Shown here one piece after another: positions 1,380 to 60,766 of a stretch of DNA of 64,000 nt. The number at the start of each line of letters is the position of its first letter. Position 1 is the stretch's first letter. The position numbers and the translations under genes were made by a program. The DNA is from Psychrobacillus sp. FSL K6-4046. GTDB lineage: Bacteria > Bacillota > Bacilli > Bacillales_A > Planococcaceae. The notes under the pieces were generated by a model. It had not been told where the DNA came from, searched no databases, and saw only the letters and a program-made list of their open reading frames with translations. The DNA lies in contig NZ_CP152020.1 of the NCBI RefSeq assembly GCF_038624605.1, forward strand, positions 806,001 through 870,000, given 5' to 3'.

Positions 1380-1527
1380 GATTTTTAAATAATTTCTACA
1401 TATTTCGTACCACAGACTTTAATATTCAAACGCTAGAGAGTAGCGGTGTTTAAGCATTTTCTTTAAGCGAGATAAAGCGGTCTTCCAATTTGAATAAAAA
1501 AATTTTAAATAAATATTGATAAAAGAT

Positions 1528-1552
1528 GTTTAATGATTTTTTAGCGGGGTAT
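1528..1552 (+). promoter_or_regulatory. Sigma-B-type promoter, copy 1
   Basis: GTTTAA (1528-1533), a 13-base spacer and GGGTAT (1547-1552) match the general-stress sigma-B consensus of Bacillales perfectly. Transcription would begin near 1558-1560, about 40 bases ahead of the small frame. Confidence 0.8.
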
Positions 1553-1598
1553 ATTAATAGTACAAGGCGGAACTACCGAAGGAAAGGACTGGTAAACA

Positions 1599-1697
1599 AT
1601 GTGTTTACAAGAAACTCCAAAGGATGATTTGCACAGCCTTGGCGGAAGATTTGCTTTACTGACGAAAGGTACTCTCGTCGGGAACCGATATATTTAG
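1599..1697 (+). CDS. Small stress-promoter peptide, 32 residues, copy 1
   Basis: A 32-codon frame, starting MCLQETPKDD and ending GTLVGNRYI, placed between a sigma-B-type promoter and a terminator. AAAGGA lies about ten bases before the ATG. The start codon sits in the loop of a perfect hairpin GTAAACA-ATG-TGTTTAC, so translation could be gated by structure. The second copy encodes the identical peptide with one silent change (CCA to CCG at codon 7), which argues for coding. I do not recognise the peptide. It has no membrane segment and is mildly basic at its end. A purely structural RNA whose sequence happens to be open is the alternative. Confidence 0.55.
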   Translation: MCLQETPKDDLHSLGGRFALLTKGTLVGNRYI

Positions 1698-1854
1698 GTT
1701 TCGATTCAGTGTATTGTTTTTGCAAGTGAAAGAAAAGTTTTTTGTTTTAAGTGCACCTAAATGTCTGGTTCATTAACAGACGGATTGTCAGTTACGATTT
1801 ACAACGCAACATAAAGTGAATTTTCCGAGTGTATTCCCTTTATAGGGAAAGAAG

Positions 1855-1887
1855 AAGCGTAATCCGAAATTTGGATTACGCTTTTTT
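1855..1887 (+). terminator. Terminator of sigma-B unit, copy 1
   Basis: Perfect 11-bp stem AAGCGTAATCC/GGATTACGCTT with a seven-base loop and T run. Confidence 0.9.
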
Positions 1888-1895
1888 CTGTATGT

Positions 1896-1915
1896 CTGTC
1901 CTTGTGTCAGAAATA
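1896..1915 (+). repeat. Decayed GTGTCC element, copy 3
   Basis: CTGTCCTTGTGTCAGAAATA resembles the elements at 564 and 1348 but has lost the GACAC arm. It lies between the two sigma-B units. Confidence 0.4.
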
Positions 1916-1936
1916 ATTGCTCAGCTAATAAAAGAT

Positions 1937-1961
1937 GTTTAAGTATTTTCCGGCGGGGTAT
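1937..1961 (+). promoter_or_regulatory. Sigma-B-type promoter, copy 2
   Basis: GTTTAA (1937-1942), 13 bases, GGGTAT (1956-1961). Both hexamers match those of copy 1 although the spacer sequence differs, which suggests selection on the promoter. Confidence 0.8.
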
Positions 1962-2007
1962 ATAAATAGTACAAGGCGGAACTACCGAAGGAAAGGACTG
2001 GTAAACA

Positions 2008-2106
2008 ATGTGTTTACAAGAAACTCCGAAGGATGATTTGCACAGCCTTGGCGGAAGATTTGCTTTACTGACGAAAGGTACTCTCGTCGGGAACCGATAT
2101 ATTTAG
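2008..2106 (+). CDS. Small stress-promoter peptide, 32 residues, copy 2
   Basis: Encodes exactly the same 32 residues as 1599-1697. The GTAAACA-ATG-TGTTTAC hairpin around the start codon is also kept. After the stop codon TAG the two copies differ by small insertions, whereas the frame itself has none. Function unknown. Confidence 0.55.
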   Translation: MCLQETPKDDLHSLGGRFALLTKGTLVGNRYI

Positions 2107-2263
2107 TTTCGATTCAGCGTATTTTAGCAAGTGAAAGAAAAGTTTTTTGTTTTAAGTGCACCTAAATGTCTGGTTCATTAACAGACGAATTGTCAGTTAC
2201 AATTTACAACGCAACATATAAGTGAATTTTCCGAGTGTATTCCCGGTTGTATAGGGAAAGAAA

Positions 2264-2296
2264 AAGCGTAATCCGAAATTTGGATTACGCTTTTTT
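2264..2296 (+). terminator. Bidirectional terminator
   Basis: Same 11-bp stem as at 1855, with T runs on both strands (TTTTTT rightward, TTTTTC leftward). It can end sigma-B unit 2 and also the leftward dehydrogenase gene, whose stop lies 42 bases away. A second hairpin, AGGATGG...CCATCC followed by seven T, lies at 2304-2337 on the plus strand. Confidence 0.8.
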
Positions 2297-2337
2297 CTTT
2301 TTTAGGATGGAGTGACTTACATCGCCCCATCCTTTTT

Positions 2338-5567: not shown

Positions 5568-5704
5568 ATTGAGTTGAATTTTGTCCTCCTTCTATTATAC
5601 ATATGACCACTAGTTGAAGACCAAACTACGCGAAACAGCTTTATGATTGATTCCTGTTTATTTGTGCTTTTAGCGTAATAGACTTTTTGTAACAAAACAA
5701 CTGG

Positions 5705-5965
5705 ATTAATGGGCGCTTTCTCCTTGGTTAATGGGACATTTTTTGATTTTTGTGTGGTCGATTTAGTTAATGGGTCACTTTCTTCATTTTATGGGACATT
5801 TCTACTTGATTAATGGGCGCTTTCCGCATAGTTAATGGGACACTTTTGGACTTCTAATGGGCACTTTTGCGGTTTATGGGCGTTTATCTTTCATTTATGG
5901 TGCACTCTTAGTATATTTATGGGCACTTTCAGGTGTTAAATGGGACACTTCTTAACTGTTATGTA
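5705..5965 (+). repeat. Array of TTAATGGGACACTTT motifs, 21-22 bp spacing
   Basis: About twelve degenerate copies of TTWATGGG(N)CACTTT. The ATGGG positions are 5709, 5731, 5770, 5791, 5813, 5835, 5857, 5876, 5897, 5919 and 5940, so steps are 21-22 bp with one double step of 39. No open frame of note runs through the array. It grades directly into the next array. Confidence 0.8.
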
Positions 5966-6425
5966 CCACTGTCACAATTTAAGGTGACAGATAGCTCCTG
6001 TTTAGGTGCGATGATTCCTAATTTAGGTGTCACTTTGAAAGTTTTATGTGCGCAACCCTAGTTTAGGTGACACATTCACAATTTTAGGTGACAGATAGCT
6101 CCTATTTAGGTGCGGTTACCTCTTATTTAGGTATCACTTGCTAGAGTTTTATGTGCACATCTTCAGTTTAGGTGACACATTCACAATTTTAGGTGACATC
6201 TAGCTCCTGTTTAGGTGCATTTTCAATTGGTTTAGGTGTCACTTTGAAAGTTTTATGTGTAAATCTCTAGTTTAGGTGACACATTCACAATTTAAGGTGA
6301 CATCTAGCTCCTGTTTAGGTGCGGAATCTCCTCGTTTAGGTGACACTTTTACAGTTTTATGTGCACATCCCTAGTTAGGTGACATGTCACTCCTATTTAG
6401 GTGTGCTTTCCCCAGGTTTACGTGC
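5966..6425 (+). repeat. Array of TTTAGGTGACA motifs with a 104-bp higher-order unit
   Basis: Copies of TTTAGGTG or TTTATGTG recur at 6065, 6086, 6108, 6129, 6151 and 6170, steps of 19-22 bp. Five motifs make a higher-order unit of 104-105 bp that repeats about four times (for example starts at 6061, 6166 and 6270). Together with the preceding array it fills the gap between the SWIM gene and the pst promoter. No protein is encoded. Confidence 0.85.
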
Positions 6426-15935: not shown

Positions 15936-16030
15936 TTATGACAATCAAGCTCTAGTTTACGACAATGAAGGGCTAATTAACGACAATGATCAAGTATTTT
16001 AGGACAATCAATTCATAGATTACTACAATC
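15936..16030 (+). repeat. Short TTACGACAAT array, exact 21-bp spacing
   Basis: Five copies of TTA(C)GACAAT-like motifs with ACAAT at 15941, 15962, 15983, 16004 and 16025, each exactly 21 bp apart. The sequence between motifs is not conserved. The same motif builds the larger arrays at 18290 and, inverted, at 38830. Confidence 0.8.
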
Positions 16031-16404: not shown

Positions 16405-18165
16405 ATGAACAACAAGATGAAGAAATTTGTCATGGCAGTCTTACTCATCACGTCTATACTGGCTTCAAGCAATGTAGGGTATGCAAACGGTTCACTACAA
16501 TCTATTGTGGATCAGGCAAGAAAAGACATGAAGGAGGCTGCATATTCATATGTAGTTCCTGCACAAAACGGTACTGTTGCAACTAGCGCAGAGTTGTATC
16601 CAGCATTAAATTTAGCGAAGATGAATTATCAAAAAGCGAGAAGTGCTATACAAAAAGCTAACGTTAGTAACAGGGATGCTTTATTAAAAGATTTAGATGC
16701 TTTATACGAGGAACGTATTTCTAAAGGAATACTACCTTATATTGATGCTTATAATTACACAGACAAGTACTTAAACTCTATAATGGCGGACATAAAAAAG
16801 GCAGAGAGTACTAAGGACTGGGAAAAGGTTGAGGCTCTTTATCATAAGCTTTCTGTCCAGCTTAAAAGTAGAACAGTTATCCTTTACCGTTTTTCTGGGA
16901 AGGCAGCTAGAGATCTATTACTAGACCAATATAAGGAGCCTGCAAATCAAAAACGAGATCAGCTGATGATACCTGTCACTATTTACATGAAAGTGAAGGA
17001 AGCGGATAAGCTACTTGCAGCAGGGAAAAAGGAAGAAGCTATTAAAATATTAGAATCTATTAAGCCGTTAGTTATTCGTTTACCTTCTCCTAGTGATTTA
17101 CCTATGGTGAAGGAGCTTATCGATAAGGTGACAGAGGTATCGAAAAAAGCGGGAATGGATATTATTATTCCAACTCCGATGCCTGCTCCTACCCCAAAAG
17201 CGCCAGCGGCTACAAATATACCTGCGATGAACCTAAAGGTAGGACAATCAAAGTCCATTAATTTGATGGATTACTTCTCTGATCCAGATGCGGATGAGCT
17301 GACGTTTACGTCCACATTAGGAACGATCAAAGGGTCAGTATTAACTCTTGATCTGGAAGCGGGTACGTACATTGTAGGAGTTACTGGATCAGACGGCGAT
17401 AAAGAAGTAACTACGCAATTCAGTGTAGTTGTCTCAGCAGCAGGCTCGCCGACAGATAATTATTATAAGGATGCTCTTGGTAAAGAAGGTGCTGCGCTAA
17501 AAGCTGCCCTTCATGAGATTATTGATGACCATACTCAGCTTAGCTATTCTCAGGCTTGGGATGCATTACGGGAAACAGATGAGGACCCGAAAAATAAAAA
17601 TAATGTGATCTTGTTTTATTCCGGGAAATCCCGCTCTAAAACTGCCAACGGAGGAAATGTAGGACAGTGGAACCGCGAGCATACGTGGGCTAAGTCTCAT
17701 GGGAATTTTGGTACAAGTAAAGGTCCTGGAACAGACATCCATCACCTTCGTCCCACGGACGTTCAAGTGAATAGTGCTAGAGGGAACCTAGACTTTGATA
17801 ATGGCGGGTCGCCAGTTAGCGGCTGTGATGGCTGCTATAAGACGAAAAATTCCTTTGAGCCACCAGATAGAGTAAAGGGTGACGTTGCTCGTATTCTTTT
17901 TTATATGGCTACACGGTATGAAGCAGGAGATCGAGTAGATTTAGAGCTAAATGAAAAACTAAACAATGGCTCAGCTCCTTTTCATGGCAAGCTTTCTGTT
18001 TTGCTAGAGTGGCATGAGCAAGATCCAGTAGATGAATTTGAACTTAACCGAAACAATGTTATCCAAGAGTGGCAGGGGAATCGTAATCCATTTATCGACC
18101 ATCCAGAATGGGTGGAGTTAATATGGGGAGAAGCTGGTTCTTTAGCTCTTCCGAAAGCTTCATAA
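16405..18165 (+). CDS. Secreted endonuclease I with SbsC-like wall-binding module
   Basis: A 586-residue exported protein. A signal peptide (MNNKMKKFVMAVLLI... to about residue 28) is followed by a helical module (30-240) with YIDAYNYTDKYL, LYRFSGKAARDLLLDQY and KRDQLMIPVTIYM, which aligns with the N-terminal secondary-cell-wall-polymer-binding domain of the S-layer protein SbsC. Next come a proline-rich linker (PTPMPAPTPKAP), an Ig/cadherin-like domain (DPDADELTFTST) and the endonuclease I domain with NREHTWAKSHG and DIHHLRPTDVQ, the His/Asn metal-nuclease centre of EndA/Bsn. It should cut extracellular DNA or RNA while held at the wall. GGAGG precedes the ATG at 16405; an upstream in-frame ATG at 16360 lacks one. 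Confidence 0.9.
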   Translation: MNNKMKKFVMAVLLITSILASSNVGYANGSLQSIVDQARKDMKEAAYSYVVPAQNGTVATSAELYPALNLAKMNYQKARSAIQKANVSNRDALLKDLDALYEERISKGILPYIDAYNYTDKYLNSIMADIKKAESTKDWEKVEALYHKLSVQLKSRTVILYRFSGKAARDLLLDQYKEPANQKRDQLMIPVTIYMKVKEADKLLAAGKKEEAIKILESIKPLVIRLPSPSDLPMVKELIDKVTEVSKKAGMDIIIPTPMPAPTPKAPAATNIPAMNLKVGQSKSINLMDYFSDPDADELTFTSTLGTIKGSVLTLDLEAGTYIVGVTGSDGDKEVTTQFSVVVSAAGSPTDNYYKDALGKEGAALKAALHEIIDDHTQLSYSQAWDALRETDEDPKNKNNVILFYSGKSRSKTANGGNVGQWNREHTWAKSHGNFGTSKGPGTDIHHLRPTDVQVNSARGNLDFDNGGSPVSGCDGCYKTKNSFEPPDRVKGDVARILFYMATRYEAGDRVDLELNEKLNNGSAPFHGKLSVLLEWHEQDPVDEFELNRNNVIQEWQGNRNPFIDHPEWVELIWGEAGSLALPKAS

Positions 18166-18212: not shown

Positions 18213-18289
18213 AGTTACTGGAAATTTTCGCGACATCAATGAATTTGCATGAGTAGTTCGAGTTGGCCAAGGTTAACATCTAATTTTAG

Positions 18290-18672
18290 GTGGTTTACGA
18301 CAATCATGGCTTAGATTACGATAATTCCACTCCTGAATGCGACAATGAGCGCCCGGATTACTACAATCAAGCTCAGGTTTACGACAATCGCCCCGAAGAT
18401 TACGACAATCCCAAAACTGCTCACCGGTCAAAGTGACTTTTACGACAATGAGCGCCCGGATTACTACAATCAAGCTCAAGTTTATGACAATCGACCCAAA
18501 GATTACGACAATCCCTAAACCGGCTCACCAGTCAAAGCACTTTTACAACAATGAGCGCTCGTATTACTACAATCAAGCTCAAGTTTACGACAATCGCCCC
18601 GAAGATTACGACAATTCCAAAACTGCTCACCGGTCAAAGTTAACTTCACAACAATCCACCCTATCCTACAAT
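18290..18672 (+). repeat. TTAC(G/T)ACAAT array with 103-bp higher-order unit
   Basis: Motifs with ACAAT at 18300, 18321 (ATAAT), 18342, 18363, 18384 and 18405, then 18445, 18466, 18487, 18508, then 18548, 18569, 18590, 18611. Steps are 21 bp within a unit and 40 bp between units, so the unit is 103-104 bp and repeats three times. A conserved CTCACCGGTCAAAG-like block fills the 40-bp step. No credible gene lies here. Confidence 0.9.
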
Positions 18673-22443: not shown

Positions 22444-22445
22444 TT

Positions 22446-22692
22446 GTCTAGCTTCATCGCCTTGCCCCTCGGGGTCAAATGGATAAAAGCTCCGGTGGCT
22501 GAGGAACTGCCTCCTCGCTTTTTCCCATTTGCCTGTCGGGGCAGTGACAGGCGATTCCGCTTTTCTTGATGTCCAGCTTCATCGCCTTGCCCCTCGGGGT
22601 CAAATGGATAAAAGCTCCGGTGGCTGAGGAACTGCCTCCTCGCTTTTTCCCATTTGCCTGTCGGGACAGAGACAGGCGATTCCGCTTTTCTT
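22446..22692 (-). repeat. 125-bp dispersed repeat, two tandem copies
   Basis: Two head-to-tail copies (22446-22570 and 22571-22692) containing GCCTTGCCCCTCGGGGTCAA, GGAACTGCCTCCTCGC and GCCTGTCGGGGCAG, GC-rich compared with the surroundings. They are reverse complements of the three units at 40459-40832, and each can fold through several short stems. The short frames in them are not genes. Confidence 0.9.
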
Positions 22693-22696
22693 GTGT

Positions 22697-38735: not shown

Positions 38736-38781
38736 AAAACAGGGTGTTTGAAGATCCACATCTTCGGACAACCTGTTTTTT
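38736..38781 (+). terminator. Rho-independent terminator
   Basis: AAAACAGG-G-TGTTTGAAGAT/ATCTTCGGACA-A-CCTGTTTTTT. Confidence 0.85.
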
Positions 38782-38839
38782 AGTTTGGAAGAGGAATTTG
38801 ATTGGAAAAGAGAATGTTTGCGAGGGATTTGACGTAAAG

Positions 38840-39618
38840 AAATAGCTGATTGTCGTAAACTAGCTGCCTATTGTCGTAAATTTGCCTCGAGTAGGAGAGC
38901 GGGCAAGGGATTGTAGTAATTTACGGGTTGATTGTCGTAAAGTAATGCAGGATTGTAGTAAACTATCTGCTCATTGTCGTAAATTTGACTGGAGTAGGAG
39001 AGCTGGCTCGGGATTGTAGTAATTTACGGGTTGATTGTCGTAAAGTAATGCAGGATTGTAGTAAACTATCTGCTCATTGTCGTAAATTTGCCTCAAGTAG
39101 GAGAGCGGGTAAGGGATTGTAGTAATTTACGGGTTGATTGTCGTAAAGTAATGCAGGATTGTAGTAAACTAGCTGCTCATTGTCGTAAATTTGGCTGGAG
39201 TAGGAGAACGGTCGAGGGATTGTAGTAATTTACGGGTTGATTGTCGTAAAGTAATGCTGGATTGTAGTAAACTAGCTGCCTATTGTCGTAAATTTGGCTG
39301 GAGTAGGAGAGCGGTCGAGGATTGTAGTAATTTACGGGTTGATTGTCGTAAAGTGATGCAGGATTGTAGTAAACTAGCTGCTCATTGTCGTAAATTTGGC
39401 TGGAGTAGAAGAGCGGTCGAGGGATTGTAGTAATTTACGGGTTGATTGTCGTAAAGTAATGCAGGATTGTCGTAAACTAGCTGCCTATTGTCGTAAATTT
39501 GCCTCGAGTAGGAGAACGGTCGAGGGATTGTAGTAATTTACGGGTTGATTGTCGTAAAGTAATGCTGGATTGTAGTAAACTAGCTGCTCATTGTCGTAAA
39601 TTTGGCTGGAGTGGAAGG
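38840..39618 (-). repeat. ATTGT(C/A)GTAA array, about 7.5 units of 103 bp
   Basis: Each unit carries four motifs, ATTGTAGTAA, ATTGTCGTAA, ATTGTAGTAA, ATTGTCGTAA, with steps of 21, 21, 21 and 40 bp (sum 103). Unit landmarks (TTTACGGGTTG) fall at 38923, 39026, 39129, 39232, 39334, 39437 and 39540. The 40-bp step holds a conserved GAGTAGGAGAGCGG block. The motif is the reverse complement of the one in the 15.9 and 18.3 kb arrays. Units are very similar, so this array is young or kept uniform. Confidence 0.95.
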
Positions 39619-40454: not shown

Positions 40455-40458
40455 ACAA

Positions 40459-40832
40459 GAAAAGCGCAACCGCCTATTCCTGCCCCGACAGGCAAATGGG
40501 GAAAAGTGAGGAGGCAGTTCCTCAGCCACCGGAGCTTTTATCCATTTGACCCCGAGGGGCAAGGAGCTGGAGCTAGACATCTAGAAAAGCGCAAGCGCCT
40601 ATGTCTGCCCCGACAGGCAAATGGAGAAAAGCGAGGAGGCAGTTCCTCAGCCACCGGAGCTTTTAACCATTTGACCCCGAGGGGCAAGGAGCTGGAGCTA
40701 GACATCTAGAAAAGCGCAAGCGCCTATGTCTGCCCCGACAGGCAAATGGAGAAAAGCGAGGAGGCAGTTCCTCAGCCACCGGAGCTTTTAACCATTTGAC
40801 CCCGAGGGGCAAGGGGCTGGAGCTAGACATCA
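40459..40832 (+). repeat. 125-bp dispersed repeat, three tandem copies
   Basis: Units at 40459-40583, 40584-40708 and 40709-40832, nearly identical, starting AAAAGCGCAAGCGCC and ending GAGCTAGACATCTA. Each holds TGCCCCGACAGGCAAATGG, GCGAGGAGGCAGTTCC, CCGGAGCTTTTAACC and GACCCCGAGGGGCA with self-pairing arms. They are inverted relative to the pair at 22446-22692. The first unit starts four bases after the RNase H stop codon. Confidence 0.95.
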
Positions 40833-60391: not shown

Positions 60392-60540
60392 GTAATCTTC
60401 CCCTATCTTGTTTTGTCTTTACCATAATATAAGTATAATGTATTTTTATTCTGATTGTTTAAATTAATTGGTATAAAAGAAGTACGTTGTATTAATACGT
60501 TCCTTTTGGTATATTATTAGTAATATACAATCTACGATGT

Positions 60541-60766
60541 GATCAAGTAAATAAGAATTGTGAAACAGAAAATATAGCGTTTGCTGAGAGCTATATCACC
60601 CCTTCTTGTTGAAACCTACCACGGAGATGTTATGCAAACATAACCGATTCGTTATCGTTATCAAACGTTTAGAGGGCTTAAAACTTATTTTAAGCTAAAC
60701 TAAGGTGGTACCACGTCTATTCAAGCACAAGGACGTCCTTTTCGAAGGACAGCTTTGTGCTTTTTT
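60541..60766 (+). promoter_or_regulatory. T-box riboswitch of proS
   Basis: A leader with the T-box sequence AAGGTGGTACCACG (60702-60715) that pairs with uncharged tRNA ends, and a terminator 60723-60766. In the Stem I region GAAACCTACC offers CCT (60615-60617), a proline codon, as specifier. So proS should be switched on when tRNA-Pro is uncharged. Confidence 0.92.
60723..60766 (+). terminator. T-box-controlled terminator
   Basis: AAGCACAA.../...TTGTGCTT with inner GTCCTT/AAGGAC stem and T6; competes with an antiterminator that includes the T-box sequence. Confidence 0.9.

Follow-up and report, generated by a model that had tools for sequence, protein, structure and literature searches.

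Structure of the array

What keeps a tandem array of short, evenly stepped motifs in a gap between bacterial genes: a protein that binds it, or the copying of a satellite? The question is raised by the window, the whole 64,000-bp stretch of DNA analysed here (positions 806001–870000 of the single 3.89-Mb contig of Psychrobacillus sp. FSL K6-4046). A sequence-only reading had pointed out about 7.5 nearly identical 103-bp units carrying ATTGT(C/A)GTAA motifs at 21, 21, 21 and 40 bp. Units and rhythm were both recovered. TRF gave a period of 103 bp, 7.6 copies and 92% matches (Table 1), and 30 exact cores at 38849–39599 followed the pattern with a single exception of 39 bp. Over the whole window 42 exact cores were counted, 30 of them in this array, versus 0.43 expected and a maximum of two in 100 shuffles. 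The consensus was roughly gATTGT(C/A)GTAAwnyA, and a putative binding site would span about 10–14 bp.

The C and A variants, described as strictly alternating, nearly did so in this array, with exceptions at its start (C,C) and at 39445–39487 (C,C,C); alternation was not general, other loci reading CAAA, CACC, CCAC or ACCA. The proposal that all motifs lie on one face of the helix holds inside a block of four cores; for cores separated by the 40-bp step the answer varies with the assumed helical repeat, 103 bp being 9.8 turns at 10.5 bp and 10.0 turns at 10.3 bp. No fifth core, of degenerate form, is claimed within the 40-bp step, the best offset (21; 3.87 of 10) scoring barely above its neighbours. 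A loose GAGAGC-like run was seen in this step by eye.

A coding function was rejected, as had been argued from the sequence, because the arrays are intergenic and their 103-bp period is not divisible by 3; the last unit at one locus (L008) reaches the convergent gene. The probable terminator in front of the array should be read against the 0.9 terminator-like sites (stem plus tail) expected by chance in the same 1.5 kb; with a second detector, the distance from a terminator to the first exact core was 65 bp. The product of the downstream gene we take, from recognition of its sequence, to be RNase H-like. An origin from a plasmid or phage was rejected, since neither 72,556 plasmid records nor 50,697 phage records contained a match to the array. 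Rfam (gathering thresholds) returned nothing at it. The outcomes that the sequence-only reading had named as refuting it were not seen. Directly behind the downstream gene lies a 125-bp tandem repeat (AGAAAAGCGCAAGCGCC..., 40458–40831), which recurs at 22445–22693 of the window and was also matched in P. faecigallinarum (L065).

Table 1. Coordinates of arrays, neighbouring features and other elements in the window
Feature	Position	Strand	Details
Array, about 7.6 units of 103 bp	38829–39612	+	TRF
Probable intrinsic terminator of the upstream gene	38745–38780	+	11-pair stem, then ACCTGTTTTT; array next, same strand
Upstream gene, 80 aa	38485–38727	+	No Pfam match; same strand as array
Downstream gene, 238 aa	39738–40454	+	
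Second array of the ATTGT(C/A)GTAA core	18284–18615	−	103-bp rhythm; behind same-strand terminator
Third, short array of the ATTGT(C/A)GTAA core	15945–16029	−	Five cores at 21 bp, three mutated
Array with a different core, TTTAGGTG	5972–6384	+	104-bp superunit; looser steps, 18–22 bp
Degenerate array, third core about TTAATGGGnCACTTT	5700–5960	+	Steps about 20–22 bp; abuts TTTAGGTG array; by eye
T-box leader	60525–60743	+	Sole Rfam match in the window (gathering thresholds)
409-bp tandem duplication	1519–2298		94% matches

Arrays elsewhere in the window and chromosome

Further arrays of the same core and of other cores were found in the window (Table 1), the TTAATGGGnCACTTT array having been missed by the scan that covered its TTTAGGTG neighbour. 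The chromosome holds at least 16 clusters of the ATTGTMGTAA core; a possible seventeenth, at 690.5 kb, consists only of two matches 61 bp apart. The paired-core pattern matched 101 times in the chromosome (reversed control, 0), and all 55 genome matches of the extended consensus fell inside clusters, two of them being a pair 61 bp apart. No ATTGTMGTAA cluster was listed over about 1 Mb, at 1.21–2.24 Mb, which may be chance. A pattern scan of genome contigs also matched many other taxa, mostly once; several loci matched more than once (L045, L049 and L079) may be coding repeats. Pairs of TTTAGGTG numbered 14 in each of the two assemblies of the species (this genome and a second one), with single matches in 8 other genomes, about the level of the reversed control (5 matches).

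Conservation of core and spacing

A search of relatives, proposed in the sequence-only reading, found the array there with the same spacing. The loci aligned mostly at 95–99% with Psychrobacillus sp. BL-248-WT-3 and at about 73–92% with P. faecigallinarum. For at least 8 of the 16 arrays of our genome, P. faecigallinarum carries an array at the corresponding site; seven counterparts were aligned, and the flanks placed the eighth, that of the short 16-kb array, in L063. Behind pyrG (L003 in our genome), P. faecigallinarum has an empty site (L125), and an array of this species (L074) is without a counterpart in the window.

Between the two species the 10-bp core and the spacing persist and the 11-bp spacers do not. 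In the seven pairs, nine fixed core positions agreed at 95–100% and the spacers at 34–40%, a comparison biased toward cores because units with at most one core mismatch were picked; spacer agreement between different loci was 31–38%, hardly lower. With the same bias from the selection of units, the 16 own and 14 P. faecigallinarum arrays gave 1.7–2.0 bits at the nine invariant core positions and at most 0.5 bits at spacer positions, except positions 11 (1.05 and 1.37) and 14 (0.77 and 0.70).

When strains were compared over eight arrays, changes had occurred at 7 of 630 core and 32 of 759 spacer positions (Fisher p 0.0005), i.e., about four times as often in spacers as in cores. Thirteen pairs had been given; ten rows passed the score filter, and two of these, the 18-kb array of the window against L042 and L070, were dropped afterwards for irregular gaps of 1–4 bp. 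With both included, the counts were 19 of 870 and 85 of 1106 (p 2e-8). Cores of the dropped rows step by 21, 40 or 41 bp, bar one 17-bp step onto a weak edge core, so their gaps are probably noise from the alignment; the score of one retained row (L011) was no better. Of the length changes between strains, four measured 103 bp, two 21 bp and one 1 bp.

Steps of 21 bp made up 113 of the 147 intervals in our genome and 78 of the 95 in P. faecigallinarum, and steps of 40 bp another 27 and 16, respectively; not one of these intervals measured 20 or 22 bp. Exceptions were a 20-bp step in a strain copy (L086) and a 22-bp step involving a two-mismatch core (L011); the TTTAGGTG array is loosely spaced, contrary to the rigid step. 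Rigid steps beside drifting spacers are what a requirement for phase would predict. Core and spacing appear to be under selection, as in a cooperative protein-binding array, which speaks for a putative bound factor.

Position relative to genes and terminators

The 15 arrays of our genome with at least three cores lay in convergent (7) or tandem (8) gaps, never in divergent ones. Together with 13 arrays of P. faecigallinarum, and with both flanks called (n = 24), the distribution was 14 convergent, 10 tandem and 0 divergent, compared with 13, 29 and 16 among 58 background gaps from our own loci. Orthologues were counted in both species, here as in the terminator counts. Since tandem gaps gave only 7 arrays in the same and 3 in the opposite orientation, the claim of orientation rests mainly on the terminator contrast.

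In a first count of 55 arrays, a terminator was located upstream on the same strand only in 26, downstream on the other strand only in 7, on both sides in 5 and on neither in 17. Removal of 8 matches outside Psychrobacillus and 6 same-species strain copies left 41 arrays, with corresponding numbers of 22, 5, 5 and 9. A same-strand upstream terminator was thus present in 27/41 and an other-strand downstream terminator in 10/41 (expectation in shuffled flanks, 0.14 and 0.13), and the one-sided cases, 22 versus 5, differed with p 0.0015.

The 45 flanking proteins compared (of 50) showed no common function, the commonest Pfam family accounting for 3 of the 45; five flanking references, among them pyrG and a transposase, were left out of this comparison. 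A reverse transcriptase gene (RVT_1; L011, 3449–4711), by eye of the group II intron type, adjoins one array, and a gene that looks transposase-like by eye (L004, 3303–4508) adjoins another.

Core turnover in Psychrobacillus

Pairs of ATTGTMGTAA occurred in 3 of 261 genomes of the family, all in Psychrobacillus. Pairs of another core, TTAGTTGKAA, were found in 15 of the 261, namely 11 of the 19 Psychrobacillus genomes and four from a different genus; the three ATTGTMGTAA genomes had none. Five of the 19 had TTTACTTGC pairs, in two cases together with TTAGTTGKAA. Further cores (GAACGMACTAAA, GACCRAYCATAT, TTCGAGAATAAA and TTCGCCCA) were seen near pyrG in other genera, and GAACGMACTAAA, searched as AACGMACTAAA pairs, matched 8 times in one and once in one other of the 261 genomes. 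Reversed controls gave no match for ATTGTMGTAA, TTTACTTGC and AACGMACTAAA and one for TTAGTTGKAA. Among viral contigs, seven matched the paired-core pattern, with two matches in each of two contigs, and nine matched the TTAGTTGKAA pattern once each, which we read as chance.

At one checked gene the TTAGTTGKAA array occupies the same post-terminator site as the ATTGTMGTAA array. Behind the terminator of a 741-aa gene, the ATTGTMGTAA genomes carry their own array and nine TTAGTTGKAA genomes theirs; one or two cores were present there in two genomes and none in five, three of the latter being TTTACTTGC genomes. In the tree of this gene the ATTGTMGTAA genomes formed one clade, and the TTTACTTGC genomes were intermixed with the TTAGTTGKAA ones. 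A same-strand terminator precedes 11 of 13 TTAGTTGKAA arrays, in ten of them within 10–34 bp. The core thus differs between species while the rhythm stays. In one genome (G134), a TTGGTTGC array with a longer superunit (L130, 180–1060) occurs besides TTAGTTGTAA arrays, i.e., two families in a single genome.

A putative binding factor and its alternatives

Spacers drift, yet core and phase persist; gains and losses nearly always involve whole units, and the location is past terminators. Our first choice, offered tentatively, is that the array is a set of sites for a sequence-specific DNA-binding protein, cooperative on one face and probably a barrier at gene 3' ends. The putative protein would recognise the 10–14 bp of the consensus given above; one site per two helical turns would bring neighbouring molecules onto one face, where they could cooperate, and its specificity would change between species. 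In our genome the clusters lie mostly just past the terminators of ordinary genes, and because of this position a barrier at 3' ends is preferred: we guess that it stops read-through transcription or insulates neighbouring units. The cooperative platform suggested from the sequence is, as a general reading, the best supported, core and phase being kept; its assignment to partition, nucleoid or replication control found no direct support, and placement points instead to the ends of transcription units. Counting against a barrier are the arrays with a terminator on neither side (9 of 41) and the ordinary nature of the flanking genes. TTF-I/Sal-box arrays behind eukaryotic rRNA genes are species-specific binding sites past transcription ends, and the barrier role may be likened to theirs as a guess; they represent one locus type with a known protein, in contrast to many loci and a putative protein here. 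If the reading is right, the target of a putative protein is spelled out at many places in the genome and differs between close relatives, so that the factor should be findable and the evolution of DNA-binding specificity testable in bacteria. On the same condition, the arrays may point to an additional level of control where transcription units end.

The main rival, which we regard as possible but doubtful, is a STAR-like selfish or neutral satellite that has no host function, expands and shrinks by slippage or unequal recombination and persists only in harmless post-terminator spots. It would likewise change by whole units, as observed between strains, and the satellite-like character noted earlier agrees with some of the observations, namely that gains and losses are unit-sized and that each locus is homogeneous. 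Locus-specific spacers, the presence of unlike arrays in one genome and the absence from divergent gaps also speak for it. A neutral repeat should not, however, keep 10 of 21 bp and an exact step while the rest diverges, nor hold the same sites in a sister species with flanks only about 73–92% identical. The nearest known kind is the STAR element of Staphylococcus, alike in copy number and spacers; it consists of intergenic direct repeats of a 10–14 bp motif, with tens of motifs in a genome and mostly one per locus; its spacers are locus-specific and at least 40 bp long, and copy number varies by whole units (PMC3532100). The array at 38829–39612 is similarly intergenic, with locus-specific spacers and whole-unit copy variation. 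No STAR locus common to species is reported there (PMC3532100), whereas at least 8 of 16 loci are shared with the sister species here; spacers here are 11 bp at the 21-bp step and reach 30 bp only within the 40-bp step, and the change of core under a constant rhythm is a feature of the present arrays. The STAR consensus (TNTGTTGNGGCCC) was not matched anywhere in the window at up to one mismatch, and the last 14 bases of the start signature GTGGGACAGAAATGAT had no exact match in 279 fetched loci.

Unlikely, in our view, is a chromosome-wide organiser whose sites anchor or bridge the nucleoid, although the dispersal of clusters over the chromosome would be compatible with binding that is cooperative or bridging. 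The 25 commonest flanking Pfam families shown (of 79) included none for partition or replication, some sites are not common to sister species (the empty pyrG site and the L074 array), and the link to terminators is left without explanation. Plasmid iterons and partition sites are direct repeats about two helical turns apart with cooperative binding, residing on a plasmid or phage with a Rep or Par gene; the arrays here are dispersed on the chromosome beside ordinary genes, and the one at 38829–39612 had no plasmid or phage match.

Still less probable is the spread of a mobile short repeat (REP/BIME or MITE) through a terminator-targeting transposase, for which the location past terminators and the two Y1_Tnp (RAYT-like) proteins of the genome speak. 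REP/BIME elements with RAYT are species-specific intergenic repeats near gene 3' ends; our arrays differ as in-phase direct repeats, mostly with no hairpin. Only one of six folded units was notably more stable than its shuffles (z −2.84; the others −1.22 to +1.88), and a hairpin unit was rejected. A search for four cores beside the two RAYT-like genes gave a single TTTAGGTG and no array, and one of these genes has palindromic repeats of its own: before the Y1_Tnp gene at 1465–2049 of L269, repeats with GTGTC...GACAC palindromes recur about 69 bp apart (about 600–1200), perhaps a separate REP-like system.

An array of antisense promoters, with neighbouring minus-strand cores as −35/−10-like pairs (ACGACA-17-TACAAT; 13 in the array at 38829–39612), is very improbable, since the pairs match the consensus at only 9 of 12 positions and all stem from one repeated motif, and since the TTAGTTGKAA and TTTACTTGC arrays, by eye, form none.

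Motif-blind survey of Bacilli

A survey blind to the motif covered 1.19 Mb, of which 138 kb was non-coding, in 60 stretches of 45 genomes for rhythms between 10 and 69 bp. Fifteen non-coding rhythms were detected, 12 of them at 20, 21, 42, 43 or 63 bp and the rest at 29, 52 and 62 bp; shuffling left none. The survey was partly pre-seen, as 40 stretches were centred on pyrG and 4 of the 12 rhythms were known earlier (L184, L193, L197 and L199); two of the 12 belong to one array in L234. The 12 fall into families f1, f8, f29 and f33, and genomes with further cores at 20–21 bp occur in four families of Bacilli. Two survey arrays step by 20 bp; the 21-bp step is not universal.

It is conceivable, though we would not expect it on balance, that arrays of helically phased motifs at the 3' ends of genes form a class common to Bacilli, in which the core is particular to each lineage, the two-turn step is the same in all, and the arrays are retained by a putative factor of repeatedly shifting specificity; this would be a bacterial counterpart of centromere-satellite or PRDM9-like co-evolution. 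No description of such repeats was found in the titles and abstracts of open-licence papers matched by keyword. By eye, the 29-bp rhythm contained DnaA-box-like words. The 52-bp rhythm corresponds to a non-coding array at 17600–17965 of L204, outside the 21-bp rule.
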